DNA from: Sipunculus nudus
Taxonomy: Eukaryota; Annelida; Sipuncula; Golfingiida; Sipunculidae
DNA: 64,000 bases
Direction of reading: 5' to 3'
NCBI GenBank assembly: GCA_026874595.1
Contig: CM049313.1
Coordinates: 60,221,159 to 60,285,158 of the forward strand
Shown: positions 25,401 through 63,400 of the stretch, piece after piece
How positions within the stretch are numbered: position 1 is the stretch's first letter
How the letters are laid out: every line of letters begins with the position of its first letter
Position numbers and translations under genes: made by a program
The notes under the pieces: model-generated
The model's database searches: none
Told to the model about the DNA's origin: nothing
The model's input: the letters and a program-made list of their open reading frames with translations, nothing else

Positions 25401-28400
25401 TGATGTAATGATTAAATACTTTTTAAAATGATTCAGTTTTGACATGTATCTTCTTCCCTTAAGATGTTCTAAAATCCCATGAGAGCCCAAATTTTGGCCT
25501 GCGCATCATGGACTCAACAATTTTTCTTCCTAATGAAAACCATGGTTGCTTTATGTTGCTGAATTGTAAAGTTAAAAGAGAAAGTATGAAATGTTGCTTT
25601 TTTTATGCATCTTGAGATAATTAGAAGTAATTGGAAATGTGAACATCATTAAAACTGTCATCTGGGTAGTGGTACCAAAGTGACAGCTTGGAAAGGGTGA
25701 AAAATTGATAACTTAATGAGATCCATCTGTGTGAAAAGTTAACATGTTGAAAATTATCAGGAAGTACTTTACAATCATTTGCATCATATACAGTTTATGT
25801 CTTGCATAGATGTAAATGTAGGTCTATTTCCAGGACTTCTATTATATACATGTATATACATGAAGAACATGATGACCTCTCTGTGTGTATATTTATTTAT
25901 GGCTCTCTGGCATTCAGTTCACATAGCTTTGCAAATTGAAACTTCTACTAAATGCTTGTTGGTATGGAGGTCTGTAATTATTTAATTTTCATGATTAAAT
26001 TAATGTTAGTCTTACACGAAATTGATGGAGTGAATTTATTGATAAGTAATAAGCTGTCAGGGGGAGGATGAAGTTATGATGAGGTTATGATTCTTGACAG
26101 TTTATTTTCTTTTGCTTAATTATGACATAAAACTGTGAAGAATCACACAAAATAGATGGCCGATAGTACCATGCATGACAATATCAATGGACACTTGAAT
26201 TTCTTATTCTCATAGAGTGTGTCTGTTAGGCTGCCTTTCCACTGGCGCAGGGAATTCGCTACATAAAATGCACTGTTTCCAGGAATGCTATTTTTCTGTG
26301 GTGTAAAGGGGTTGCATTGGCATTGTGGTTTCAGTCTGAATCGCTCAAGTGTCATCCAATTAGCCTTAGCCTTGGTTAAGAAGCGGATCTCGGGGAGGGG
26401 GGGGGGTTCCAAACCCACCTTTTTTATTCGGCATAACCTTTCTTTTAGGGTTTCTGACCATATTTTGTGGTCTGGACCCCCCCTCCCTTTTCTGGACATG
26501 GTGACCTTTGTTTAGGTTTTTCTTTATTCCTCCTTGATTGAAGCCCCTCTTTTCCAAACCTGGAACCACCCCTGTGGGTGGGGTACATACCTTGTGTCGT
26601 AGGTTACGCATGATGCTATTTCAACGGAATACTAGGGGCCTGGACAGCTGAGCGGTAAAACGCTTGGCCTTCTCCGCTAGCGACCTGGTTTGATCCCCGG
26701 TGTGGCTATGAGAGTGGGTTGTAGTTGCCCATCCAAGGTAGGTGGTTTTCTCTGGGTTCTCTGGTTTCCTCCACCCTTACCGACTACCGAGCACCAACAT
26801 CCCAGCCATGGGTGGTGCCTCATATTAGTTATATAAACTAGTAGTACAATCCATGTAAAGTAAATAAAGTTTATATATTATATAAGTTCAACACTCTGAT
26901 GGAGATCCTTTTTCAGGCAAGGCAAACGCAACACTGTGCTGCAGAAAATTGCATTCATGGAAAGGCAGCCTCATATAAGAGCCCAAAAGACTGAAACAAA
27001 AAATGTTTGATAAGACTAGTGGCATTGGTACTACCAGACTATATACTCTTTACTTTCTAATATTGTTCAGGAGAAAGTGTGGAAAGTTGGTGATCGTTGC
27101 AAGGCCTGGTTTACGGAGGACGACCAGCTGTATCATGCGGTGATTACGTCCATAGATTCTGACACAGGCACTTGTAATGTGCGTTATACAGAATATGGCA
27201 ATGAAGAAACACAGGCTCTGGCTGACCTCCTGCCACCAAGTACAAAGTCTCAGCCAGCTGATTCCCACCCAGATAACCTACTGCCAGAGGTGAGTTGGAA
27301 AGAGAGATAGATAGAAAGACATATAATGGAATAAAGGCTTCAGAAAGACTTTTCTGTATCAGTGAATGTGCATTTTACAAGGTGTAACACGTGTATTGTA
27401 TATAAATAATATATCATGCACATTAGTTTCCTGTATTCAGGGCATTTTGTCATAAAGTTACAAAAATTTAAGACTTTTTCAGTAATTTTCAAAACAGAAT
27501 TAAGTTCAGCTCAACATTGGCATTACTGCAATAAATTAAATAATTTAACCCTTGTTTTGGCAGATTTAAATATCTGTAGGTTATAATAAACCTTTCAGTA
27601 GACCAGAGGCTTATGTTGACAAATGTATAAAATCAGGAAATTTTTGTTCTGAACTTGTTCCAGTAAGGTAAACAACGATCAGAATTGTGTTATCATTGCT
27701 AACAGTAGTTAATGTACAGGTGGCAGTGTATTAATTTTACTTCAGATGGATGGTGGCATGGACTGGTCCTCTCCTCACAGATCACCCGCTTCATCAAGCA
27801 GAGGTCAACCTCCTTACAGACACAGAAGTCGTCAAGCACCAAGTCACCCCACACATAGTCACCCAGGATGGGGCTGGCCACAAACCCCACCTCCTTTTAG
27901 TGTACCACAGTTCGCTCCACCAACTCCATTAATCCCTGTAAGTACTTTTATATAGTTATGAACTCCATCAAAAAGATAGGAAAAAGTGATTAATCTCAGC
28001 ACAGTGGACATTGGTTTACTTGTAGCTGTGAATACATGACTAAGTAGGCATTCATATGGGGCTGGTAAGCTCTACTTGAGTTGTGATAAGGAGGAATGTA
28101 CTGCAATGGTCTCCCATCCTGTTGCATTGATATCATGGTGAAAAGTCGATAATCTTATCATTAGACTATGATTGATGAATAACCAGACATGGGGTAATAG
28201 TAATAGATAATAGTAATAGGAAGTAATTCAATTACTTTTCATCAGTAATAGGCAATAATAGATAATAGGCAGTCCAAAAATGTAGAATAATAGTAATAGT
28301 ACTAGTAATAGGCAGATGAGTAATAGATCAATAGCTATTACTTTTAACTATTACCAGTCTGGGGGTAATAAAGAGTTAGTGGGTCTGAGTGCAAGTCAGC

Positions 28401-31400
28401 AGGAACACTGATAAGGGCCCAAGCTGAGGTGAACCTGCATGCTTTCATGCTCATTAACCGGTGGCACAGGCTTATCCTGGGCCATGATGTTCTTACTAAC
28501 ATCAATAGCACATGATGACTGCATTGTTGGTACATCAATGTAGGTGTTTTCCATGAATACCGACTCTTTACTCTTTACAATTGAAGCACAGTACAACCAT
28601 ACCCTTTGATGTTTGTGTATAAGCAACTGTTAGCTGGGGCAGAACCCAGTCAGGCAGATCACCAAAGGTTAACTCATACCTGGTGACTGGTTCCCAACTA
28701 AAAATTGTGACTAAAACTGTACCTTTTTAAACACAAATCTGTGACTATTTCCTTTCCAATCTTGTGGCTTTCTTTTGTGACTTTATTTCCTACCCAAAAT
28801 TGTGACTTTTATTTCCTGTGTGTGACATATTTCTTGCAATTATATTTTCACCAGTCAGAAAGGAACACTCCATGAAAACCTTGTTTGCCTTATGTTATAA
28901 ACATGACTCACCTCCCAGATGAAACTGGATGACAATAGTGCGGAAGTACATTTGATTTAAGGCAGAAAATGAAATGTACATGTAATATTGAGTTAGTTGT
29001 TCTTTCAAAGTAAACTATGCAACTGCATTCAGTTGCAATTTGAATTTTGTTAAATTACAAAGGATTTTCAGTTATGTGAAACAGGTAAATAATAATAGTA
29101 ACATTTTCAGATACCCACCCTGATACAATGAAGGAAACCATACTCTTATGATGAGGACAAAGTTTACACATCGCCAAGGCTCACTGATTATTGCAGCATC
29201 TTAATAAACTAGGTATCTTTGAGTAGGCAAAAGGGAAACCCCCTGAAAGAGCCCTCAAACCCTTATCTTGCCTCTCTTGCCTACGTTAACCCCTGTCGAA
29301 TGCGTCTTTAGGACTGCAGGAATAATCTTCAGATCATTGCTGGGTGTAGGACAATCCCACCCCCCTTCCCCCTCTTTTGGATTACTCAATTAAAAATAAC
29401 TCAAAATTAAAATTTACTATATATTTTATATTTTTGGTTAAATATACAAAAACAATATCAGTGTATACCTTACACTAGTAAGGTTATGAAAATAAAAATA
29501 ATCAGTCAAATGAAAATGCATATAAGCAGTATTTGATGAATAATCATTCATGATAATACAGATGTATATATTGTTGGCGTTTATATTGTTGATAATAAAT
29601 TAAGTGACTCATCAATTATCTATATATACAATATTCTATTACTGCACAGTTATTCCTGCACTATAACAGGACTCACTTTAAAGAATTCTAAATGTAGCCA
29701 TACATTTTAAAAAATAATCTAAAATTTAAAATAAAGCTGGCAAAATTTGGGAGGGGGGGGGGGAGGGGCTTTTGTCTGTACCACACTGTTGCCAGCTGGG
29801 GGATTCAACAGCTTATGTTCATCAGGTGCAATGGACACTTCATTTATTTATGAACTATTCATGCACCATTTCTTGTTTATTTAGTGGTTGGTAACATATT
29901 TTAGTGTGGCCTAACGAGCGATCAACATAAGATTCTTCAAGATTAAATGTTTTTACTTATTTTTATTAAACCAGTAATAGTTAATAGTAATAGTAATAGG
30001 AGTAAAGTAATAGTAATAGCCACCTATTACTTTTGTTGAAACACTGTAAATATTAGTTAATAGTAATAGGCAAACACCCAAAGTAATTGTAATAGGCCCT
30101 ATTATTGAAATCAGTAATAGGCCCCATGTCTGTAAATAACACTAAACAATATATGTGAACTCATAACCCAAATGGAAAATCTGTTTCTATGGGAATGAGT
30201 CATTTCCTGTATCATGTACAATAGGTATTCATCCAGCTACCCATGCAATCCATGCTTGTATTCAATATCCAAGCATGGCTTGAATAGTACACTAAAAATG
30301 CTAGAGTTCTGGTTTAGGCCATAAGGTGTCGTAAAAAATTACAAAAAATAATTGCCTCCTCATAGAGGTGGCCCTCTCTGAAGGATGTAAAGGCACTCTG
30401 ATGTCAGTACACTGGTCATAGACTCTCTAATGTCAGAGGGCCATTATTACACTACTTCTGAGACATCTTCTATTTCAGGGTAGTCAGGGTAAAGTCAGGG
30501 AATTGGATAAAAGTTTCACTGATCAGGGAAATGTCTTTGATTTTCTCATAAGGAAAGGGGTCAGTCAAATATTTTTTTCTCAGCATATCTACGTGATGAT
30601 TGGCTCAGGTGGCTCTGACAGTGTTCAAACATTGTGGCCGCAGTGTATATTATTTACATGCAACACAAACTGGTGTATTAGTTTCATCATGATGACTACA
30701 ACCACTGTGCTATGTAATGACTTGAAGACATATCAAACTATATATTATAAAATATCCTAGAATTTTCAGGCAGTTGTCAAGGAAAAGTAGGGGAATTTCA
30801 TTTTCAGCAGTGTTGCTTAGGAAACACTATCTTACTTCAAAATTTATCTGAATGTTTATATTATTCATGCACTTTTTAGCGAACCTGTGAGCTTATGCGA
30901 TGGTGTGGCGTCGTCCAGCGTCCGTCATCCATCGTCCGTGGTCTGTACGTTTACCCATACTATCTTGAAAATGGCAAGAGTAAGCATCATGAAATTATAT
31001 GCAAAAAATTAGTCATCTAAAAAACTCTATCAGATTTTGCTTATTTTTTGGCTAACTGCATTTTCTTAGATTTTATTGGGAAAAAGCTAAAAAAGCTTTA
31101 AAAATCTTCTTCTTGGAAACTGTTCAGCCAAATCGTCCAATATTTCACAGAAATGATCCCTGGAACAATCTCCCTCAAGTTTGTTCGAATGGTTTAAGTT
31201 CAATGATTTTGGCCGAGTTACAGGAAGTTGAACTAAGTCATCTGTCCAAAAAAGCATACTAAAATGACAATCTCAGAAACAGCCAGAGCTATCATCACCA
31301 AATTTTATGCCAGTGTTGGTCACATGAGATATACAGTCAAGCCCGCTTATTGTCATGTCGGTGGTGCATGCGTAAATTATGATAATAACCGGGATGTGAC

Positions 31401-34400
31401 ATTATGCGGGCTTCAACATTGATGTCCATTTGAGTCATAGAAGAAGCGTTATGTCTCAATTGATATTAAATAAATCGTCAACTAAAAGGAAACAGAAACG
31501 TTTTTGAATATTTTTATTGCAAAACGGCATATCAAATTATGTTAATGCACACCGGACAATTTATTTCCTGTAAATTTTGTGCCGCATGCCGCAATGACTG
31601 AAAAAATCCAACAGAAAGAGACATCTGGGTCATGAGGTCAAATGTCTGGAAATATGCGGCACAGTTATAACGTTATGCGTAGGCAAACTATTTTACTAAA
31701 TAATAATTTCCCCGACTATTGCGCCTTATTTTCCGGATATCTTATTAATGACTCAAACTTCCCAAATTGTTGGGGGAGCTGGCATCATCATGCCATTGTC
31801 AACTTTCTGAAGTTTTGCCGCGATTGAGGTTTTGGACCGGGTATCTCCTCCAGTGCTCACAAAACCACCAGCGTTTTGTGGACCCTTAGAAGGGATTTCC
31901 AGTCGTAAGATACGTTTAGAGCTCGTGCTTTATATCATCTCGGCAAAACGACACCGAGGTGTAAACCACGGCCTTGCAAAGGCCAGGAGTTCATAATGTA
32001 TGAAATGTGATCGCAAACATCGCCCTTGTTAACGTACGAAGAAACGTAATGACTGGATTACCGTGGTATCTTAAGACGTTAATTAGCTAGGTGACGGGCA
32101 GTGACCTGCATGCATCACTGCACCCTCCTGCCGCACACAGGTGGGAGATGTGATCGTTCAATACGCCTCACCGATTACAGGGTTTTGGCCACCTTGATCG
32201 CTGTGTCGGCGTCTGATGTGATATTAACTGCGATCTGGTATCACTGCAAGGGTTCCAAGCATGACAATAAACGGGATTATGACAATATGCCATGACATTA
32301 AACTGTCAGATTTACCATTGTTTATATAGGAAATGGTTTGGGATTTCACATTTATGTGACAATAAACGGGATTTTCTATTAACCGATATGACACAAAGTG
32401 GGCTCGACTGTATATGAAATTCAGGTATTGATGGCGCCACCTGCATTGACCTTTTTTTGTACGGGGGTCATTGGTCATCTGTACATCAACCCATAATTTT
32501 CAGAAATAGCAGGAGCTACCATCCCCAGATTTTATGCAATAATCTGTCACATATCAAATGTTGTGGGATTCAGCTTATTTATTTGCTATCTGGTATCATG
32601 CCCCTCAGATCTGCATGTGGAGCCAATCTGTGAGCTTATACAATTGTGTGGCTACTATTTCAGATTTGGCAACAGGCCAAAGGTCAGTCTGGACCTATTT
32701 TTAGCTTTGGCAGACTGCCAACTGTATCTTATTAGGCAACAGGTCAAGAGTTCACTCAGTGCAGCCAGGTATAGGTCAGGAGTTCACTCACTGCAGTAGC
32801 TGCATTCTATTTATAGCGTTTGCAGACTGCCCACTGCATCAGATTTTACACCAAAGTTCAGCCTGGATCTATTTATAGCTTTGGCAGACTGCCAGCTGTG
32901 TCAGATTATGCAACAGGTCAAGAGTTCACTCAGTGCAGCCAGGTAGAGGTCAAAAGTTTACTCAGTCTAGCCAGGTGCAGGTCGTGAGTTCACTCAGTGC
33001 AGAAGCCTGAGCCAGCAAATTTGTCACAGTTCACTCGGGGCACAGCAGTTACAATGCTGCCCAAGCTGTATGTTTAATGGCCTGCTTACTACAGCACCCT
33101 GCTGGCTGGGGTATCGCTTACACCCCTGCCTCCAGAGGGTATGTTGCTAGGCAACAGGGATGTTCCAATATGGCGGACCCCTAGCAACAGACTATACCTT
33201 TCCCAAATAAATTCCTCATTAATCAGTTACTGTATCGTGTACTGCCTCCCAGATGACCCCTTATCCAGGCCTATATATCATCCTGTCATGGTAACATAAA
33301 CAATGCCACTGGGGTAAGTTTACCAGCCCCACAGTGGTCAGTCACTGTGTTGCCAGGGTACATGACAGGAATGGCAGTTGTGGGCGTCTGTAAGTTAAAA
33401 AATTTCAGTTGTTTGTATTTTTAACCAAAATCAAATGTATGATTCTGTTAGAAAAACGTGTGTTTTTTGTCATGCTGAAAACCAAAGTTTGATTTAATTT
33501 TTTGTTTGAATGTAAAACCTGGTCTTTTGAGACATGTAGAGTCATAATGGCTGTTGCTGCTGGGGCCCCCTGAGGTTGTGTATGGGGTTTGATGTTGAGG
33601 ATACACATGAAATATTGTCACTTTTTTGTACATTTATTCTTGTACTCAATTATACATTCTTAAATTCATAAAAATAATCCTGAGTATTATTCCTAAATGC
33701 ATAAGTATAACCCCAGATGCTAAGTGTTTCTGTGCATGGGCATATCAAATTATTCCATTCCCCCTTCAATTTAACATAAACACAGTGGGTCATAATGGAC
33801 AGATCTCTTGACTCCCATTTGGCATATTTATCCATGCTTTGTAGAGTATGTGGGAACAAATGCCAAACATACGTTCAAAAACTTAAATACAAGCCCATTA
33901 TGTGCAAGGATAATACTCAAAGAATATTTGATGTTTATGGCATTGACATATCACAAGATCAGAAGGATACACACCCAGAGCACCTTTGCAGAAAATGTTA
34001 CATTAAGATATTCAACCAGAAAAAAACCCTTGGAAATGCAGATGCTCGTAAATCTAAGAACCATGAAATGGCAGTGCTTTTCAATAGCAAGTGGTTACCT
34101 CACAAGAGAGGGGCTCCTCAAAATTGCTTTGCATGCAGCCAAGCTGCATCGCAAAAGAAAACTGGTCGACCGGTGAAAAGTAGGCGTGGGGCTCCAAAAC
34201 GGATTCCAGATGGACTTCTGTTCAATCATAGGGATTCGAATATTTTTGACTTCAGTGCAGAGAAGGCAGAAATAAAATTTAACAACATGAATATAGAGGG
34301 GATGAATGAAACACAAAAATCAATGTTCATATGTCCAATTTGCCAAGATATTTATTCCACACATGCTGTGTCTGGAACTTGTGGTCATTATTTCTGTGCA

Positions 34401-37207
34401 CACTGTATCAGTATGGAATTTTGCCAGGCCCTGTCAAATAATATTGAATGTCCTGTGTGTAGTGGCAATTTAGACTTCTTAAGCTGTAGAGTAGCAGATA
34501 AAAGGTTCCAGGATCAAATTCTTTCTTTGGAACTCACTTGTAATTTGTGCCAGGTGACTTCAGCTGCAACAGCTATGACGGAACATGCATGCAGACCTAA
34601 AGTTAACACAGCAAATACGGTAATAGAAACAGAAACAGTACAACTAGAGATTGAGGGAGAGCAGGCATCCTGTTCCCCTGGTAAATCTCAGAGTGTCCCA
34701 GATCCTGTCACACCTGTTCATGAACCTGATGCCACAGTACCTTCACAACTTGCGCGGTCTATTCCGATGATGACAACCGCAATTCAAACATCCCCCAGTA
34801 TAATGCCAATGACGCTGGATGAGAGCATGGAAAGGACCATACAAGAGCCACCCTTACCAGCTGAACGGCATTTGTTCACTAACTTGGCAAAGAGGATGCT
34901 GAGATTTTCTAAAGAAAAGGGATCGATCAGGTGCAAAAATAAACGAGGACAGGTAAGATTTAATTTTAATATGAGCATCAGAAATTCCATTTTTTTTAAA
35001 GTATTTCCATAAATATCATTAAGGCTAATTTCATTATCAAATAATTGCTTGTGTAAACTTTTTCCAGCCAATATTGCTTCAGAGAACAGTTGTACCAAGG
35101 AAATCCTCAGAGAAAGCCCCAAGTTATTTGGTCAGAAGACGTGCTGCAAGAATCGGAAAACTTAGGGCAGTGTTAGCAGGCAAACAGGAAAAAGCATTGA
35201 AAATACAGCATGCTAGTGAATTGAAAAAACTGAGTAAAGAAACAAGAAGAGACGTTTGCAGCAAAGCCGGGGTTGCCAGTGGTGGTCGTCTCAACAGATA
35301 TACTAGCCTGGCAATGAAAGCTAGCCTTGGACTTACTTGGGGCCAGATGAGAAAACATAAGCGGTATGTTCAGTTCAGATTAGATCTGAAAAATTTCATT
35401 TTCACATTCAAATAAGTGTCAAGTGCTCAAATTAATTAATAATTTGAAATAAGTAATTGTTTCCTTTTTCAGATTTATGAGGAGAGCTGGCATGGAGATC
35501 GAAAATGAACATAAAGAACGGGCTGCCAGGAAGGAGATTGTATCAGAAAAGCTTGTTGGTAGAACTGCAAGGTTTCTTGAGAAAGATGAGAAACATCCTG
35601 ACAGAGATAAGAGTGGGTTTGTGGAAGTGGAGGTGCCCTTTGTGTACGTCAATGACATAGCTGGCTTTGTCAATGATTTGTTGGACAGATATCAGAGGTA
35701 ATTAGTTTACTTTAGAAAATATATATATACACTATCGATTAAAAATTTATTCACTATCGATATTATTTTCATGCCTGTCTAATAGTATCCAGTAAAATTT
35801 AAATGTTTTATTCTGTAAAATGTATGTGTACTCAATTTCAAGGAGTAAGCTGTTGTTATGGAGAGATGGGATGATGGCCGAGCAAGCAGATGATGAAATT
35901 TGGATTAAAATTGGTGGAGATCATGGAGGAGGCAACATGAAGTACACATTACAAGTGCTCAACCTGAAAGAACCCAATGCAAAGCAGCACACATTTGTGA
36001 TTGGTTGCTTTGAAGCTAAGGATCTCCATGAAAATCTTCGGCGTTCTCTGGAGGTTATGAAACCTTGCATTACCAAGCTGGCACAGATGTCATGGAAGTA
36101 AGTTATCAAAAATACAAACAAAATATACAAAGAATGTTTAACACCCCAGAATAACACAAAATATATGAAAGCAAAATATTTAATTTTATAGATAACTATT
36201 TTCGTCAAAATTGCACCGTTTAAAGCTATTTAAAAAAGTATCAAACGATATCCTTATTACAGTGTAAGGTTTATTTTTTGCAGTGGCAAAAGAATTCGTC
36301 TGTTCCTCAATGGGGATTATGACTTCCTGTGTAAAGTGTATGGTCTCTCTGGACCAAACGGTAAGTATTTCTATTTCTCTAACCTTTCTGTATAAAGAAA
36401 AATAAAATATATTGTGTTTTGTTAATTATGTCACTTGATCAGTGATTGTAAGGCATATTTTTTTTCTCCAGGCTCTTATCCATGCCTTTGGTGTGATGTT
36501 CCCAAGAAAGCCATGCAGATAAGGCGCCGGGAAAGAATTTCCCAACAACGCAAGCTGTCACTCATTAAAAAACAATATTCTGAATACGTAATACTTGGCA
36601 AAGCAAAGAAGGTGAACGCATCAGCATTCTACAATGTCATTCATAAACCTCTGCTGGACATCTTTATCAACCATGTAAGTATATAAAGTTATCCTGGAAT
36701 TTTATCACTCAAGGTAAATTTGCCCATTCCCAAATCTTTTTTCTCATAATTTTAAACATATTTATCTTGATAGCTGCATGTTTTAAATCACTTTTATACA
36801 TTTTTTTCAGGTAGCTCCACCATATTTTCACATTCTTCTTGGCATTGTGAAAAAACATCATGACCTGTTTATCAAAGATTGCCATGACACAGACATGGAA
36901 ATTGCAAAACACCTTTTGCAAAATAAGTGTCCATCCAGCAATCCAGTCATGATACGATACAGAGATATGGTCAAATTGGCACAAGAAGTAATGAGCATAG
37001 AGGAAAGAATCAGAGCTCTTCAACAACAGATTAGTGTTGTTGATGACAATGAGGACATTTCATTAGCAGATATGGAATCTCAAAGAAGAGCTTTGGAAAA
37101 GGAATTGCGTGATATGGTAAGAATTTATACATGCATTTTTTCAAATTTGAAAGTAAATTAAAAAAAAAAAAAATACAAGACACCATTTCTGTATTTAATT
37201 TTATATA

Positions 37208-37280
<73 letters not shown>

Positions 37281-38349
37281 TATATTATATTTATTTCATA
37301 TAAAGGAAAGAAAACAGAAGACCCTTCAGAATCCACCAACATCGGAAATGAGAGTAGGACCAGTGACAAGAACATTAGATCAGACCTTAGAAACCAGTGG
37401 CATCGTTGTGCAAGCTTACCACAGCCACAGCTTTGTCGGAAACCACTGTCACAAATACCTACAGGTATGTATGCAATTTCTGTATCTATATCAATATCAA
37501 ACATTATAATTTTATTGGTTTAAAATAATTAAAAAGACAGCAGCATTGGTCTAAAAAAATATGTCCATATTGTTTCAGGAACCAGTCTACAATAACCTAT
37601 GCGACAAGATGGTCACAGTGAAGGTGTACACAGACAATGCCTTGATTGTGAACAAAGCCTTTGTGACTGCACAAACTTATAAAATGCTGAATAAGCGGTT
37701 TGCTGCAGTTCACAGAATGGTTTCCCGGGATAGGGCCATATCTGCTGAGGAGTGTGATATAATAGGTAAGATTTTAATCTTTGATTATTCATATATAACA
37801 TATATGATTTACCCATTCATTATAAAGAATACGCATAAAATACATGCATTAAAATATGTGTATATAAATTCGTCTTTCCAGAGCAGAAGATAGATTCATA
37901 CCTCAGCTATTACCGGCGCCATCTAAGTCAGCCTCTCACACCGAAACACCATTTTTTGGAGGATCATGTTGTATCTTGGATTCGGAAGTGGGGCTATGGG
38001 ATGGGTCTTCATGGAGAACAGGGAGGGGAAGGGATCCATGCCGTCATCAATAAAATTAAAAGGGCAACATGGGCAATTAAAAATCCAGTTTCAAGACTGC
38101 TTTCGACCATAAAGGAGCAGCATACACAGTGTGCTCCAGAGATTCAAGCTGAAATTCCAGCAATCAAAAAGAGAAAATCTAAAAGCACCTCTGATTAATC
38201 ACAGGTTAAGGAAAGAAATTATAGCCTTTAGGCCTTACCCAAAGAGAAACAATATTTATAGAAAATAGTTGGTACGAGTATATGATGTTACTTGTGTACA
38301 GAATGACAAAATATTTTATGGAGGCCAGGTTTCATTTTTATTTACTGTA

Positions 38350-38390
<41 letters not shown>

Positions 38391-41300
38391 TACATTACTG
38401 ATGACATGTATATATGACCATAAATGGATCATTTTTCATCACTTAAAACAATATTATTTTGTAATATTTTTTGTATTTTTTCAGTCATTATTCGCATTTA
38501 TCCACTTCAACATATTTACAAGTATCATAAGTGTTTCATATAACACATATGTTCTCATATAAATGTTAAATATACTTCTTTGTTCAAATGATTGACATCC
38601 AATGGGTTTCAGGCATGAAATTCCTTATTATTTGTATGTGACTGACAGCAAATATACCTCAATTTCTGATAACTCTGTCTCTTTAGAAAAAAATTAAATC
38701 AACATATTGAAAGCACACATCTTTTGTGAAATATAGTGTAATTGTTCTCTGAAAATTTGGTTGTTATAAAAATACAAGTGCTTGTGTAGTCACTTAGACT
38801 GTATCTTTAATTTCATGGAATGATTTGTTTTTACAGTGACAACAAGAATGGTGTAGTAGTTTGTGTTGTTAACTCATTCTGTAGTGTTGCTCCTCAGATG
38901 AATAAAAATATAACTTGTATGTTCAAATTCCTGAGAAAATTACCTTTCAGTGCATATATATATTGTCTTGGGTGTATTTTTAATAAAAAATATATGATGG
39001 AAAACATACAGGAGATCTTGTTATAAACACAGGTTTATCAGAGCCCCGGTCACACTGAGTGTGTAACATGATACTGATGCTGCTACACTGGTGGCCAGGG
39101 GCTGTGTGTATACACAGTAGCTCAGCCTATGTTCCCATTAAACATACACCAGCGTAACTGCTGTGGGGGCAACTGCTTTTCTCACCTAAGCCTGGTCAGC
39201 CCCATGCATAAGACTCAAGGTAAGTTTGATGTATTGGCCTGGTATTTTGACCTGTCTATGTGTCTTTGATGGCTTTCTTGTTCACAAGACAGGTGTCGCC
39301 ACCTACAATGACGTTTGCACAGTGTATGTGCCTGCTTGTTTCTATAGACGAATTTGATATATCAGCCTGAAATTAGGCATATTTATGCAAATTGAAAAGC
39401 TTTTTCGTATACAAGACTGGTGGTGCCATCTACAATAATTTTTGCACAGTGTGTGTCCCTGCTTGTTTCTCAGGAGGGGTTTGATATATCAGTCTGAAAT
39501 TGGGCATATGTATATATCTCTGATAGCTTTGTTGTATACAAGACTGGTGGTGCCAGCTACAGTCATTTTTCGAGTTGTGTGAACCCATGCCAGAATTTCC
39601 GCAGTGATGTTTGTGTAATTGTTTCTTATTCAAAATGTTTAGTACTTTTCATATATATGAGAAGTAATGGTCCAGCATTGAAACATTATACCTGGTGTAT
39701 TTCCCAATGCACAGGTTTGCATTAGGCCTGTAGGCCTTGTTAACATTTAATATGAATTTGAAATTCTTAATCTATTTGAATTTGAAATTCTTAATTTATA
39801 AAATTTATAAATTCTTAATCTATAAAATTTATTCATTGTGTTCAGAAGTTGTTTCCTCAGTATATGAACATATTACTTTTCTTTGAAGTTTTCTCATAAC
39901 TGATATGCCACTGTTATTATCTTTTGAGTGTGCTTTGTTGTAACAGGTAATTTCAGAAAACTTTTTTTGTTTTCAGCCCATGTTTCCCCCAGTGATGAGA
40001 CCCCCATTTCCCGGATGGCCAACAGATCCAACTCAGTCCCTACCACAGGTAATGTAACTTTTATAAGAAGACCAGTGTTTAGACTGGCCTCATTTTGTCA
40101 GTTCATGGATTAAAGTGTTAACCCATATCATAGTGGGCCATTTTATCTGTGGCAAAATGATACGTATTGACAACTGCAGTGAAAATCTTGAAAAGGAAAT
40201 TTCATCCTTGTGCTGGACCAGCTACACAAATAGCATTTCTTCAGATAAACCAAACCAGCTGTCTTTTTTTACGTATTTTTCTTATGAAACCTACCATGTG
40301 TGAAAAAAGATTTGGGGACAGTTCAATGTTATAGCTTTTGTGGCTCCCTGGGGAGCATACACCCTAACACATGCAATCATAGATGTATTAGGGTTATCAA
40401 TTCAACATTTTCCTACCACCCATGCATGACCTGTACCCAGTCGCTCCTGGTTGGAAAGGGCTCACCCTTTATGTGAAGGCTTTGGCCAAGAGTCTTTGTG
40501 AGGAATAACAGTCTTAATGAGATTTAAACCCAAACCTTTGCAGCACCCTAACAATTGCACCTGTATGCTCCATAAAACTCAGTAAAGCTTTATAACAAGC
40601 TTTATTTCTATCTCAGAAATTCATAGGAAACTTGTGGTTACCATAGATATTGGATTAACATATTGATTTACTGTTTTGCACATTTTCCTTCTTTTTCTAA
40701 TTCCTCATCGAAAGCTGAATATATTGAGTTTACAGATTGTGCACAGTACTTTTATACTAGCATGAATGGCCAGTTGGAAATAACATTGTTGTTTTCAGCA
40801 TGACTGCTATCACCACAAAAAGTAGGCCTTAGCAGTGCAATAGATTTATGCCAACTGATCCTCTCTATTTTGACACAGTTCCCTTTTTCAAGAGGTAATG
40901 TTTCTATCCGCATTTATATTTCATGGTGTTAGCAGAATCATTCAAAAGAAATGTGTTTGGATAAATTGTATATACTAGTATATCATATGGGTAGTTTTTA
41001 GCATTTTCATCTGTTCAGCATATACTCACTGTGTTATCATACTTATGCAGGTTATACCTGATATTGCTCCACCACCTCCTCTAGTGGATGAAAATGAGGC
41101 TGTCACAGATGACAAAGAGGCTCTACACAGCATGCTGATATCCTGGTACATGAGTGGCTATCACACGGGCTACTATCAGGTGAGACTACGGTATAGTGAC
41201 TAAATATAGTACCAACTTCTATGCTGGTCAGTAACCTGCACAGGGATATGACTAAGTAGCAGCATCCAGATAGTCAAATGTTCATCTCCTTTCTCATTGG

Positions 41301-48690: not shown

Positions 48691-49420
48691 AATAGGATGA
48701 GAAACTGCTTACTGTTTCAGATTTGGCAACAGATCAAGAGTTCATTCAGTGCAGCCAAATATAGGTCAAGAGTTCAATCAGTGCAGCCAAGCACAAGGCA
48801 TGTGATCACCTCATGGGCAGCATGTGATCATCTCATTGGTAGCTTGTGATCACCTCATGAGTATCATGTGATCACCTCATGGGTGTCATGCCACTCAGGG
48901 CTGCATATGGAGCCAATCTGTGAGCTTATGCAATTGTGTGCCTACTATTTCAGATTTGGCAATGGGCAAAAGGTCAGCCTGGATTTATTTACAGCGTTGG
49001 CAGACTGCCAATTGTGTCAGATTATGCAACAGGTCAAGAGTTCGCTCAGTGCCGCCAGGTACAGGTCTTAAGTTCACTCAGTCTAGCCAGGTGCAGGTCA
49101 AGAGTTCACTCAGTGCAGTAGCCTTAGCCAGTAATTTGTCACAGTACACTTGGGGCAACAGCCTTTCTCACCTAAGCCTGGTCAGCCCCGTGCATCAGAC
49201 TTAAGGTAAGTTTGATGTATTGGCCTATTATTCTGACCTGTCTATGTGTCTTTAATGGCTTTCTCGTTCACAAGACAGGTGTCGCCATCTACAATGACTT
49301 TTGCAAAGTGTATGTGCCTGCTTAATTCTACGGAGGAATTTGATATATCAGCCTGAAATTGGGCATATTTATACATGTCAAATAGCTTTGTCGTATACAA
49401 GACTGGTGGTTTTCATTTGG
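48690..49420 (+). repeat. Dispersed repeat family C, copy 2 (empty site for the transposon)
   Basis: Contains CACTTGGGGCAACAGCCTTT at about 49148, the uninterrupted form of the transposon target. Confidence 0.8.
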
Positions 49421-58053: not shown

Positions 58054-58079
58054 AATGGCCAAGATTGAATCTGTATCTT

Positions 58080-58785
58080 TAAATAGGTTGAGAAACTGCT
58101 AACTGTTTCAGATTTGGCAACAGATCAAGAGTTCATTCATTGCAGCCAGATATAGGTCAAGAGTTCAATCAGTGCAGCCAAGCACAAGGCATGCGATCAC
58201 CTCATGGGTGACATGTGAACACCTCATGGGCACCATGTGATCATTTCATGGGTGTCATGCCCCTCAGGGCAGGGCCCCTGCATGAGCTTATGCAATGGTG
58301 TGGCTACTATTTCAGATTTGGCAACAGGCTAGAGGTCAGTCTGGATCTATTTATAGCTTTGGCAGACTGCCAGCTGTATCAGATTAGGCAATAAGGTCAA
58401 GAGTTCACTAAGTGCAGCGAGGTATGGGTCAGGAGTTTACTCAGTGCAGTAGCTGCATTCTATTTATAGCTTTGGCAGACTGCCAACTGTGTCAGATTAT
58501 GCAACAGGTCAAGAGTATACTCAGTGCAGCCAGGTACAGGTCAAAAGATCACTCAGTCTAGCCAGTTGCAGGTCTTGAGTTCACTCCGTGCAGAAGCCTG
58601 AGCAAGCTATTCATCACAATTCACTCGGGGCAACAGCCTTTCTCACCTAAGCCTGGTCAGCCCCATGCATCAGACTCAAGGTAAGTTTGATGTTTTGGCA
58701 TAATATTTTGACCTGTCTATGTGTCTTTGATGGCTTTCTCGCTCACACGACAGGTGTCGCCACCTACAATGACTTTATAAAATAA
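58080..58785 (+). repeat. Dispersed repeat family C, copy 3 (empty site for the transposon)
   Basis: Contains TTCACTCGGGGCAACAGCCT (58620-58639), identical around the target to the sequence left of the RAG1-like transposon. Confidence 0.82.
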
Positions 58786-60411: not shown

Positions 60412-63400
60412 CTATTTAGATGTCCCTGCTGCTTCCATCTTTGCCTCTGCCTTTTTCTTTTGTTTTTCCCTCATGATGTCAGCATCTCTGCAATGAATCA
60501 ACATCAAAGCTGTATACCAAGATAAAACATGACCTCATTATATATGCATGGATTTAGCCAATAAACTTAAGTGAAGAATTGTATTGGTTATTATTTCTAT
60601 TGAGTTTTGTGAAAAACCATCAAAACCCTGGTAAGTTATCACAGCGACACTGAAAACTGACAAACCATTGGTATACCATAATACATCCTGTCTCAGATGC
60701 GTTTAAAAAAATCACAATAGGTCTGTAAAGGCCCAGCAAAGGGAGCCAATCTGTCTATCCAAACAAGAGTTGTTGTCCATGAACTAATTTGAGAACAGAT
60801 GGACCCTTGTAAACTTGACCTTTGACTTTGTGACCCTAAAATCAGAAAGAATCTTCCCTATTGGCAGGTGAGCAATATATCTGGAATAACTTTGCCTTGA
60901 AGTGCAACCACATTCTTTTTATAGAAATTGGTCCTGTGACATTGACCTTTTAACCCTAAATTGATAGGGTTCTTTCTTTATCAGTGGGTCTTATTTAAGT
61001 CAAGTTTTAAACAAATATGTCAAACCAAACTTTAGTTATCATCTGGAAACTAATTTGTGGACAGATGGCCCCCTGTGACCTTGACCGTTACCTTGTGACC
61101 CTATGTTCAAAGAGATTCTTCCCCTATTGGCAGGTCAGCTAAATGCACAAGATGGAAGTTTGGGATGAAAAGTTTTGCTTAAAATGCATCCACAATCTTT
61201 TAAGAAATTAAGTGGGTCCTGTGACCTGATGACCCCAAAGTCATTAGGGTTCTTGCCTTACTGTTGGCCATATATAAGTCTGAAGTCCATATGTCAATTC
61301 AAACTGGAGTTATCACCTGGAACAAATTTGTGGATAGACGGTTGAACAGACAGATGGACTACCATGGACACAGGGTGATTACTATAGAGCATCCACTTAT
61401 GAACAATAAACACCAAAGGTCTCAAGACACCAGGTGAAACCAAAGCGTAGAGAAAATTACATGTTTGGTGTCATTTTATAGTCTAAAAAATGGACAAAAA
61501 TTGTGAAAATTTGAAAAAAAAAAACGGCCGCCATAAGATTTCGGGAACTGACAAAACTAGTTATGTTCAAAATTCAAGGCAAGATTCATGCCAATCCATG
61601 CGTTAATTATCAATATATGGGAGGTTTTGTATCAAATATTTATTTATTCTGGGTGGAACTTACAAACCCCATAGCTTGGAGGATATAGGTCGCAGTGACC
61701 TAATTTCAGGTTTCCAAGGAAATTTTTATTGACCCTGGATGTTCACAGGGGTTAGGCTTTGTACATTTATTCATTTTTTCAGACTTTAAGTCAGCTGAAG
61801 TAAAAGCTGACCTTGACCTTTGGAACCCTAAATCATAAGGGGGTTTCCTAACCCCCTCTGCCATACGTATGTGAAATATAAAATCAATAGGATAGGTTTG
61901 GTTGCCAAGATATAAGAGATTAACAAAAAACTTTAACCTGATTTTTTCTTGACCACAAGGTTGTACACTAAGAAGCTTGTAGGGTCAGTGGTTCAGATTT
62001 GTGTTTTGCTGATGGACAGACGATGGACAAAGGACCATACTAATGCAAACCTGTGAAATGGAATATACAGGTATAATGCTTCCATGATAACAAGCTAGAC
62101 CATTACTTGAAAAGTACTTGATTAATTTTCAAATACATGTGTGACATGTATCTTTACAATGCATGTAATAAATATTTTGAACCCAAGTACCAGCAATAAT
62201 TACACAATCATCACTCATGAAATGCAGGCATGGATGCACAAAAAGATTGAAGTTGGTGCCACCAGTCTTGAGTATGAGAAAGCCATTGAAGATGTATAGA
62301 CATGCAAAATTTCAGGCAGATACTTCCAACTACTCTTGAGCTATGTGTACTGATGCATAGAACCCAAAAACAATTGTAGGTGGCTCCACAAGTCTTGTAT
62401 ACAATGAAAGATGTATGGACATGCACAATTTCAAACTGACATGTCAAATCACACCTGATAAATAAGCAGGGACATAACTGTGCAAAATTTACTGTAATTT
62501 GTACTAGGCACCACCAGTTTTGTGTTGACAAAGTTATCCAAGATGTATATATGTGCACAATTTCAGGCTGATATATCAAATCCCTCCTGAGAAATAAGTT
62601 TGGACATATACTTTGCAAAATAATTGAAGATGGCACCATCAGTCTTGTAAATGATGAAGCTATACGAGATGTATGGACATGCATAATTTTAGACTGATAC
62701 ATCAAACTTCTCAGTCAGGCGAACTCGGATGACCAAGCCCAACTGAGAAAGGCAGTTGCCCCTAAGTGAACTGAAACTAATGTGCAGGTGCAGCTACTGC
62801 ACTGAGTGAACTCTTGACCCATACCTGGCTGCACTGACTGAACTCTTCATTTTTCCCCAATCAAGTGAGGGTTTATATTTTCTGTGAATGTGGTGTGATT
62901 GGGTGTTATGAACAAAAGCTGATGAATCACCCGGCACGAGTCAGTCACAAATGTTTGATGCCATTGTTACAGTTAGGTTCTCGTCAGGTGAAGCATGTTT
63001 GGTCAACACTGACCAGACTGAGCGAGGTGCAGGTGCATCATGTGATGAGCATCTCAGTCGAGTTACTGGTGTATTACCTGTGATAGTGGGTATATTTTTT
63101 CATCTTCCTTGCGTAAATGTAGACATTTATAAACCACAAATACCCCATGATATGTGCCTTGCACAAAAATCAATTTTAAAGCCCACAATATTATCTGAAT
63201 CTACAGTATGCTGGAAGATTCTAGAGCTAACAATTACAATTTGTGCCCTGTCTGGCCCATTGCTCAAAATCATGTTTATGGCCTATAGCTTACAAATTAT
63301 AGGTCACCTGACTTAATTTCAGATTTTCAAGGAGACTTGCTCAGAACCTCTCTTGATGTTGTTTTTAAGATTCTACACTTGATGAATACAATTTGTGCCC

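Follow-up and report, generated by a model that had tools for sequence, protein, structure and literature searches.

An intron of the SMN gene of Sipunculus nudus contains a DNA transposon whose predicted product resembles RAG1, and the locus raises the question of which kind of transposon carries this sequence and whether its ends are related to the paired signals that RAG1 cuts. The window analysed was a 64-kb stretch of the S. nudus genome; coordinates are window positions, genome searches covered 1.43 Gb in 153 contigs, and published work is cited from excerpts of the papers named. The transposon is complete, occupying 6,125 bp at 33041–39165 inside the SMN intron. We assign it, with a probability of about 0.93, to the autonomous cut-and-paste Chapaev transposons, with a transposase that retains a RING and an N-terminal zinc domain of RAG1 type. 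Among Chapaevs with a RAG1-like N-terminus, a known kind of element, it makes a good example, both clean and recent, and it bears on the source of the RAG1 N-terminal region and its paired signals. The part worth following is the bipartite structure of its ends, with spacings of 14 and 5 bp kept in three families.

Classification and domain order of the transposase

Chapaev elements are recognized by target-site duplications (TSDs) of 3–4 bp, CAC/GTG termini and the motifs C(2)C, LH and H(4)H (PMC4079192), and DUF1280 has been assigned to Chapaev transposases, in a clade with RAG1 (PMC3985635). Each of these features was found here. The TSD is 4 bp in 5/6 copies of the element, and 4-bp TSDs also flank two diverged relatives (CATT at L058, ACCT at L018/L056). 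The termini read 5'-CAC ... GTG-3', with CACAGCAGTTAC at both ends, and the window protein matches DUF1280 (PF06918) with an E value of 1e-17. The DDE motifs are present as D586, within a highly conserved GGDHGGG, D656, C675-x2-C678, H979-x4-H984 and E1005; the LH motif reads FH in the window protein and LH in the family consensus. Two diverged families of the host genome retain all of these catalytic and zinc residues. Two related groups differ in TSD length: the Chapaev3 subgroup, for which a 3-bp TWA duplication is expected (PMC4079192), and Transib, exemplified by HzTransib, for which 5 bp is expected (PMC8355894). Canonical Transib elements also have no N-terminal zinc domain or RING, whereas the window element has both (PMC4411706).

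The first-pass annotation, made from the letters of the window alone, had described a ten-exon gene with all splice sites and no stop codon. This was borne out: the coding sequence (33795–38198, 3,183 bases) encodes 1,060 amino acids (aa) with zero internal stops, and all nine introns are GT-AG. Outside the gene the element holds only 754 and 967 bp. The exons are as follows, the correspondence of exon 2 to the relative P0005 being taken from the homologue alignment.

33795..34952, forward strand: exon 1, N-terminal zinc (Chapa) domain, RING and following zinc finger, linker
35068..35363, forward strand: exon 2, whose P0005 counterpart aligns with the RAG1 nonamer-binding region in some rows
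35473..35697, forward strand: exon 3
35843..36097, forward strand: exon 4, first catalytic Asp D586 (GGDHGGG) and end of the DUF1280 match
36284..36360, forward strand: exon 5, second Asp, D656
36472..36674, forward strand: exon 6, C675-x2-C678
36811..37116, forward strand: exon 7, PPYFHILLG (LH) motif
37306..37464, forward strand: exon 8, GNHCH motif
37579..37765, forward strand: exon 9, with a one-codon deletion private to the window copy
37882..38198, forward strand: exon 10, H979(4)H984, proposed catalytic Glu E1005 and stop codon

The relationship to RAG1 that the annotation had proposed was upheld at the N-terminus by sequence, and for the catalytic fold by the prediction for P0005. The RAG1 N-terminal zinc (importin-binding) domain was identified with hhalign (probability 94.3%, E 1e-7, 66 columns), and the family profile matches the solved RAG1 N-terminus (E 9.8e-6); the Pfam model RAG1_imp_bd stayed under its cut-off for the window protein (18.6 vs 23.3 bits). 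In VIA, the exon 1 model is matched equally well by LNX2 and by 1rmd, the dimerization domain of RAG1. For the core, the predicted full-length fold of P0005, which is 36% identical, has RAG1 as its best fold match and is of RAG1/Transib type. D656 and C675 lie 19 residues apart, as do D708 and C727 of mouse RAG1, which, with E962 and others, we take to be RAG1 catalytic and zinc residues. In a weak hhalign alignment (family with P0005 as first row; E 0.032), the counterparts of H979, H984 and E1005 fall opposite H, H and E962 of RAG1; the structure entry titled RAG1(E962Q) carries Q in place of this E962. A single gene has the domain order of RAG1: N-terminal zinc domain, RING, a region aligned with the nonamer-binding domain (in the relative) and RNase H core.

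Several points weigh against this interpretation. In the N-terminal part, Foldseek placed LNX and TRAF6 RING structures above RAG1 1rmd, which came ninth; the exon 1 model has a predicted local distance difference test score (pLDDT) of 73.8 and a predicted template modelling score (pTM) of 0.41, with 101/386 residues under 50, and its N-terminal zinc part lies outside all fold matches listed. In the core, the full-length fold is that of P0005 (pLDDT 81.5, pTM 0.62) rather than of the window protein, and the structural rows that include the nonamer-binding region have root-mean-square deviations of about 7–10 Å. The RAG1 core Pfam model was absent among the 13 families matched by the window protein at E up to 1, and among the best 25 of 29 families at E up to 0.1. 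The hhalign comparison with the mouse RAG1 piece that gave E 0.032 has a probability of 1.6%, so the core has no convincing sequence match to RAG1. Finally, the evidence for placing the element in Chapaev consists of its Pfam match, its motifs, its TSD and assignments from the literature. When the window protein was aligned with four homologues and this alignment was used for a further protein search, a single match of 388 aa was obtained, probably because scoring was limited to the top word-sharing candidates.

The first-pass annotation had also likened the element to the RAGL elements. If it were a true RAGL (RAG1L–RAG2L, ProtoRAG-type) transposon that had lost RAG2L, then the best fold match of P0005, the N-terminal similarity and the CAC at the start of the ends would all be expected, as these are shared with ProtoRAG/RAGL, and ProtoRAG ends are likewise bipartite and asymmetric. 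Protostome RAGL elements, however, have 5-bp TSDs and a RAG2L (PMC7204232), compared with 4-bp TSDs in 5/6 copies here. The longest open reading frame touching no exon is 97 aa, with 116 aa on the other strand; no RAG2L was seen among these frames, on which the Kelch model was not run. By eye, the ends depart from the protostome RAGL consensus after CAC, and the DUF1280 core is that of a Chapaev. RAGL membership was rejected on the TSD length and the absence of a visible RAG2L, and we regard it as highly improbable.

The Chapaev assignment agrees with published descriptions. Chapaev, Transib and RAG1 have been placed together in the CMCT clade (PMC12730594), and Chapaevs in which the RAG1 N-terminal domain and RING precede a Chapaev-type core were published in 2015 by Kapitonov and Koonin (PMC4411706). 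Likened by description to these, the window element shows no difference in kind from what the excerpt of that paper describes.

Another comparison, also by description only, identifies what may be the nearest named relative. This is N-RAG-TP of Aplysia californica, reportedly from the work of Panchin and Moroz in 2008. It is likewise an invertebrate transposon with RAG1 N-terminal-like sequence, but it is described as composed entirely of such sequence (PMC8355894), whereas the window gene also has a catalytic core. As separate observations on the homologues (among P0001–P0037), RING was found in 3/13 of those aligned, the N-terminal zinc cysteines were invariant in 21/21 rows chosen for having that end, and three homologues also matched zf-AD. 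One homologue, P0037 of Hydra, combines RING with DUF1280.

Copies, age and present activity

Searches of the genome with the ends of the element recovered six near-identical copies on six contigs. Their 5' ends match at 99–100%, and six 3' ends match, that on C17 over 261/266 bases only; five and one further, weaker matches, respectively, were found at 69–81%. The count of copies with both ends, proposed in the first-pass annotation as a check, gave 5/6, each with a 4-bp duplication (GGGG, ACCT, TTTA, TGCT and AGAT). That these five duplications differ argues against an origin of the six copies by segmental duplication. The sixth copy, on C17, has lost its final bases, has internal deletions and shows no duplication.

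With two microsatellites excluded, the copies differ pairwise at 0.30–0.46% of sites. Among the variable gap-free sites, 61/62 are private to a single copy, which shows that the copies spread recently; a burst from a single source would leave a star pattern of this sort. The 33 private coding changes comprise 24 nonsynonymous, 8 synonymous and 1 stop, compared with a neutral expectation of 72, 24 and 4%, which indicates that copies drift after landing. The frame is open in four copies (window, C3, C12 and C7) and broken in two, by a stop at residue 638 on C11 and by disruption on C17. These counts support a young and possibly still active element, as had been proposed. The window copy had further been called complete and apparently intact. 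Its ends, TSD and open frame agree with this, but it alone has lost one exon 9 codon kept by the other five, a deletion that may affect its product and counts against it.

A long open multi-exon frame inside a host-gene intron could alternatively belong to a domesticated gene of the host. Against domestication stand the six copies on six contigs, five of them with both ends and differing TSDs, the post-insertion changes that fit neutrality and the two broken frames. It was rejected on the six copies and the neutral change, and we consider it scarcely credible beside a mobile Chapaev.

The exact two-block end pattern occurred at 12 sites genome-wide. Five of these are of 3' type, and the seven of 5' type belong to the six copies plus one older element; the reversed pattern, used as a control, occurred at 0 sites. 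Derivatives with identical exact ends were rejected because all 12 sites belong to the six copies and the one older element, altered ends being outside this search. Insertions and deletions distinguish the copies at a TA microsatellite in intron 7 of the element (37193–37280). On contig C11, at 34.29–34.41 Mb, three relatives of the window element (L014, L015 and L017), all decayed, lie within about 0.12 Mb. No relative was found in a scan of viral contigs.

Spacing of the terminal blocks

The first-pass annotation had reported identical inverted ends. Identity was confirmed over 12 contiguous bp and over a second identical block of 14 bp, but the two blocks lie at unequal distances, and long identical inverted ends were rejected because contiguous identity is just 12 bp. 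Each end consists of CACAGCAGTTAC followed by TGTATGTTTAATG; the gap between them is 14 bp at the 5' end and 5 bp at the 3' end. This two-block, unequal layout is a feature absent from that annotation.

33041..33052, forward strand: 5' end, block 1 CACAGCAGTTAC
33053..33066, forward strand: 5' end spacer, 14 bp; 14 bp at 7/7 exact 5'-type genome sites and also in two diverged families
33067..33080, forward strand: 5' end, block 2 TGTATGTTTAATGG
39135..39148, reverse strand: 3' end, block 2 TGTATGTTTAATGG
39149..39153, reverse strand: 3' end spacer, 5 bp; 5 bp at 5/5 exact 3'-type genome sites and also in diverged families
39154..39165, reverse strand: 3' end, block 1 CACAGCAGTTAC

The 14/5 spacing is common to three families in the host genome. 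The second is a young Chapaev family on C2 (L058; TSD CATT, 14/5 ends), with further copies on C3 (L059) and C15 (L060) and about 99% identity among copies. The third, on C13 (L018 and L056, C13:9509762–9517862), is diverged and full-length, 8.1 kb by coordinates, with TSD ACCT and 14/5 ends; a matching 3' end was found on C9 (L057). Identity to the window protein by domain is 40–81% for the C13 family and 30–75% for the C2 family, and overall, with domain counts summed, about 62 and 53%; these are upper values, since overlaps between pieces were settled towards the higher identity. When the 3' block 2 was slid along the 5' end, a single clear maximum appeared at the 14-versus-5 offset in all three families, with 13/13, 10/13 and 9/13 matches and at most 7 at any other offset. 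The spacer sequences themselves differ. Single ends with agreeing spacing were seen at L059 (C3), L060 (C15), L057 (C9), L017 (C11) and L025 (C13), and TTAATG stood at the expected place in 7 of the 11 block-1 sites outside the window family among the loci examined.

The remaining sites are less favourable to a conserved layout. Two of the 11 have the TTTAATT form (L017 and L025), where block 2 finishes TTTAATT rather than TTTAATG and block 1 has one changed base each, the spacing being the same; two have nothing at that place (L014 and L059), and the end of L015 is altered. The excerpts of the literature compared, which include neither the original Repbase reports nor the N-RAG-TP paper, make no mention of Chapaev ends built of two blocks with unequal spacing.

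The 14/5 layout recalls the signals cut by RAG1. V(D)J recombination signal sequences (RSSs) likewise start with CAC and have two conserved blocks and two spacer classes, each used once. They differ in the heptamer (CACAGTG vs CACAGCA in the element), in the nonamer, ACAAAAACC, which is unlike block 2, TGTATGTTTAATG, and in a spacer difference of 11 bp vs 9 bp. A 12/23 signal as such was not found, since the ends have a CACAGCA start, another block 2, and spacers of 14 and 5 bp after a 12-bp block.

It is possible, and we propose it tentatively, that Chapaevs of the window type use a 12/23-like rule, in which bipartite ends, one with a long and one with a short spacer, are synapsed by a transposase of RAG1 architecture. 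If so, asymmetric bipartite ends would be a trait of the wider RAG1–Transib–Chapaev clan and not an invention of the RAG transposon, or else a striking convergence. There is about an even chance that the asymmetry is instead a generic feature of offset internal binding sites, unrelated to the RAG 12/23 arrangement. In other transposon families, the P element among them, the internal binding site also lies at unequal distances from the terminal repeat, which speaks for the generic explanation, as do the dissimilarity of block 2 to the RSS nonamer, the difference of 9 rather than 11 bp and the origin of all three compared families in one genome. Speaking against it, the enzyme of the relative is built like RAG1, and some structural rows align part of it to the nonamer-binding domain. 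By arithmetic, block 2 spans nucleotides 18–31 and 27–40 from the cut, and so covers the positions of the RSS nonamers, which by the definition in PMC8289069 lie at nucleotides 20–28 (12-RSS) and 31–39 (23-RSS). ProtoRAG, too, requires asymmetric ends of two conserved elements, with spacers of 27/31 bp (PMC8289069) compared with 14/5 here. The element and the two families with 14/5 ends thus form a natural test of unequal end spacing beyond RAG and ProtoRAG.

In the mechanism that is most likely for the element, the host would transcribe the gene and splice the transcript, the catalytic core of the transposase would bind block 1, and the upstream region resembling the RAG1 nonamer-binding domain would bind block 2. 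One long-spacer end would be paired with one short-spacer end, and the DDE RNase H site (D586, D656 and E1005) would cut before CAC; hairpins may form in the process, an idea drawn only from the analogy with RAG and Transib. Insertion would follow with a 4-bp stagger. The RING may serve as a ubiquitin ligase regulating the enzyme or host partners, as suggested by RAG1, whose RING is a ubiquitin ligase (PMC4411706).

Insertion site and host gene

The GGGG duplications, the two empty-site paralogues within the window and the identity of the host gene as SMN had all been noted before, and each was recovered, the empty sites by a joined-flank comparison in which both showed a single GGGG.

33037..33040, no strand: 5' TSD GGGG; single GGGG at both empty sites
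39166..39169, no strand: 3' TSD GGGG
49152..49155, forward strand: empty-site paralogue, single GGGG; flanks joined by script
58627..58630, forward strand: empty-site paralogue, single GGGG; flanks joined by script
27938..39976, forward strand: host SMN intron containing the element, from SMN exon positions
27071–27289: SMN Tudor exon
41051–41179: SMN YG-box exon

The joined flanks match the window over 443 bp at 89.6% around 49152 and over 319 bp at 91.9% around 58627; a third, older match, near 62.8 kb, has a similarity of about 71%. The empty sites derive from a diverged repeat unit of which the window has several occurrences (32677–33002, 48704–49410, 58071–58776 and 62040–62847).

Eight SMN exons were placed, from 19418 to 41849, with the Tudor and YG-box exons located around the insertion intron, and the transposon lies on the same strand as SMN. 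In a tree of 28 chosen SMN proteins the host grouped first with a metagenome protein (93/75) and next with the annelid Ridgeia (92/46), a support too low to assign a phylum; a protostome host, as in the first-pass annotation, is plausible. Elsewhere in the assembly, nine COX1 matches with frames of 577–578 residues were found on contigs C60, C61, C62, C66, C72, C74, C75 and C89, and a shorter, mitochondrial-looking COX1 on C123. These matches suggest that the assembly includes DNA of bacterial cobionts or symbionts.

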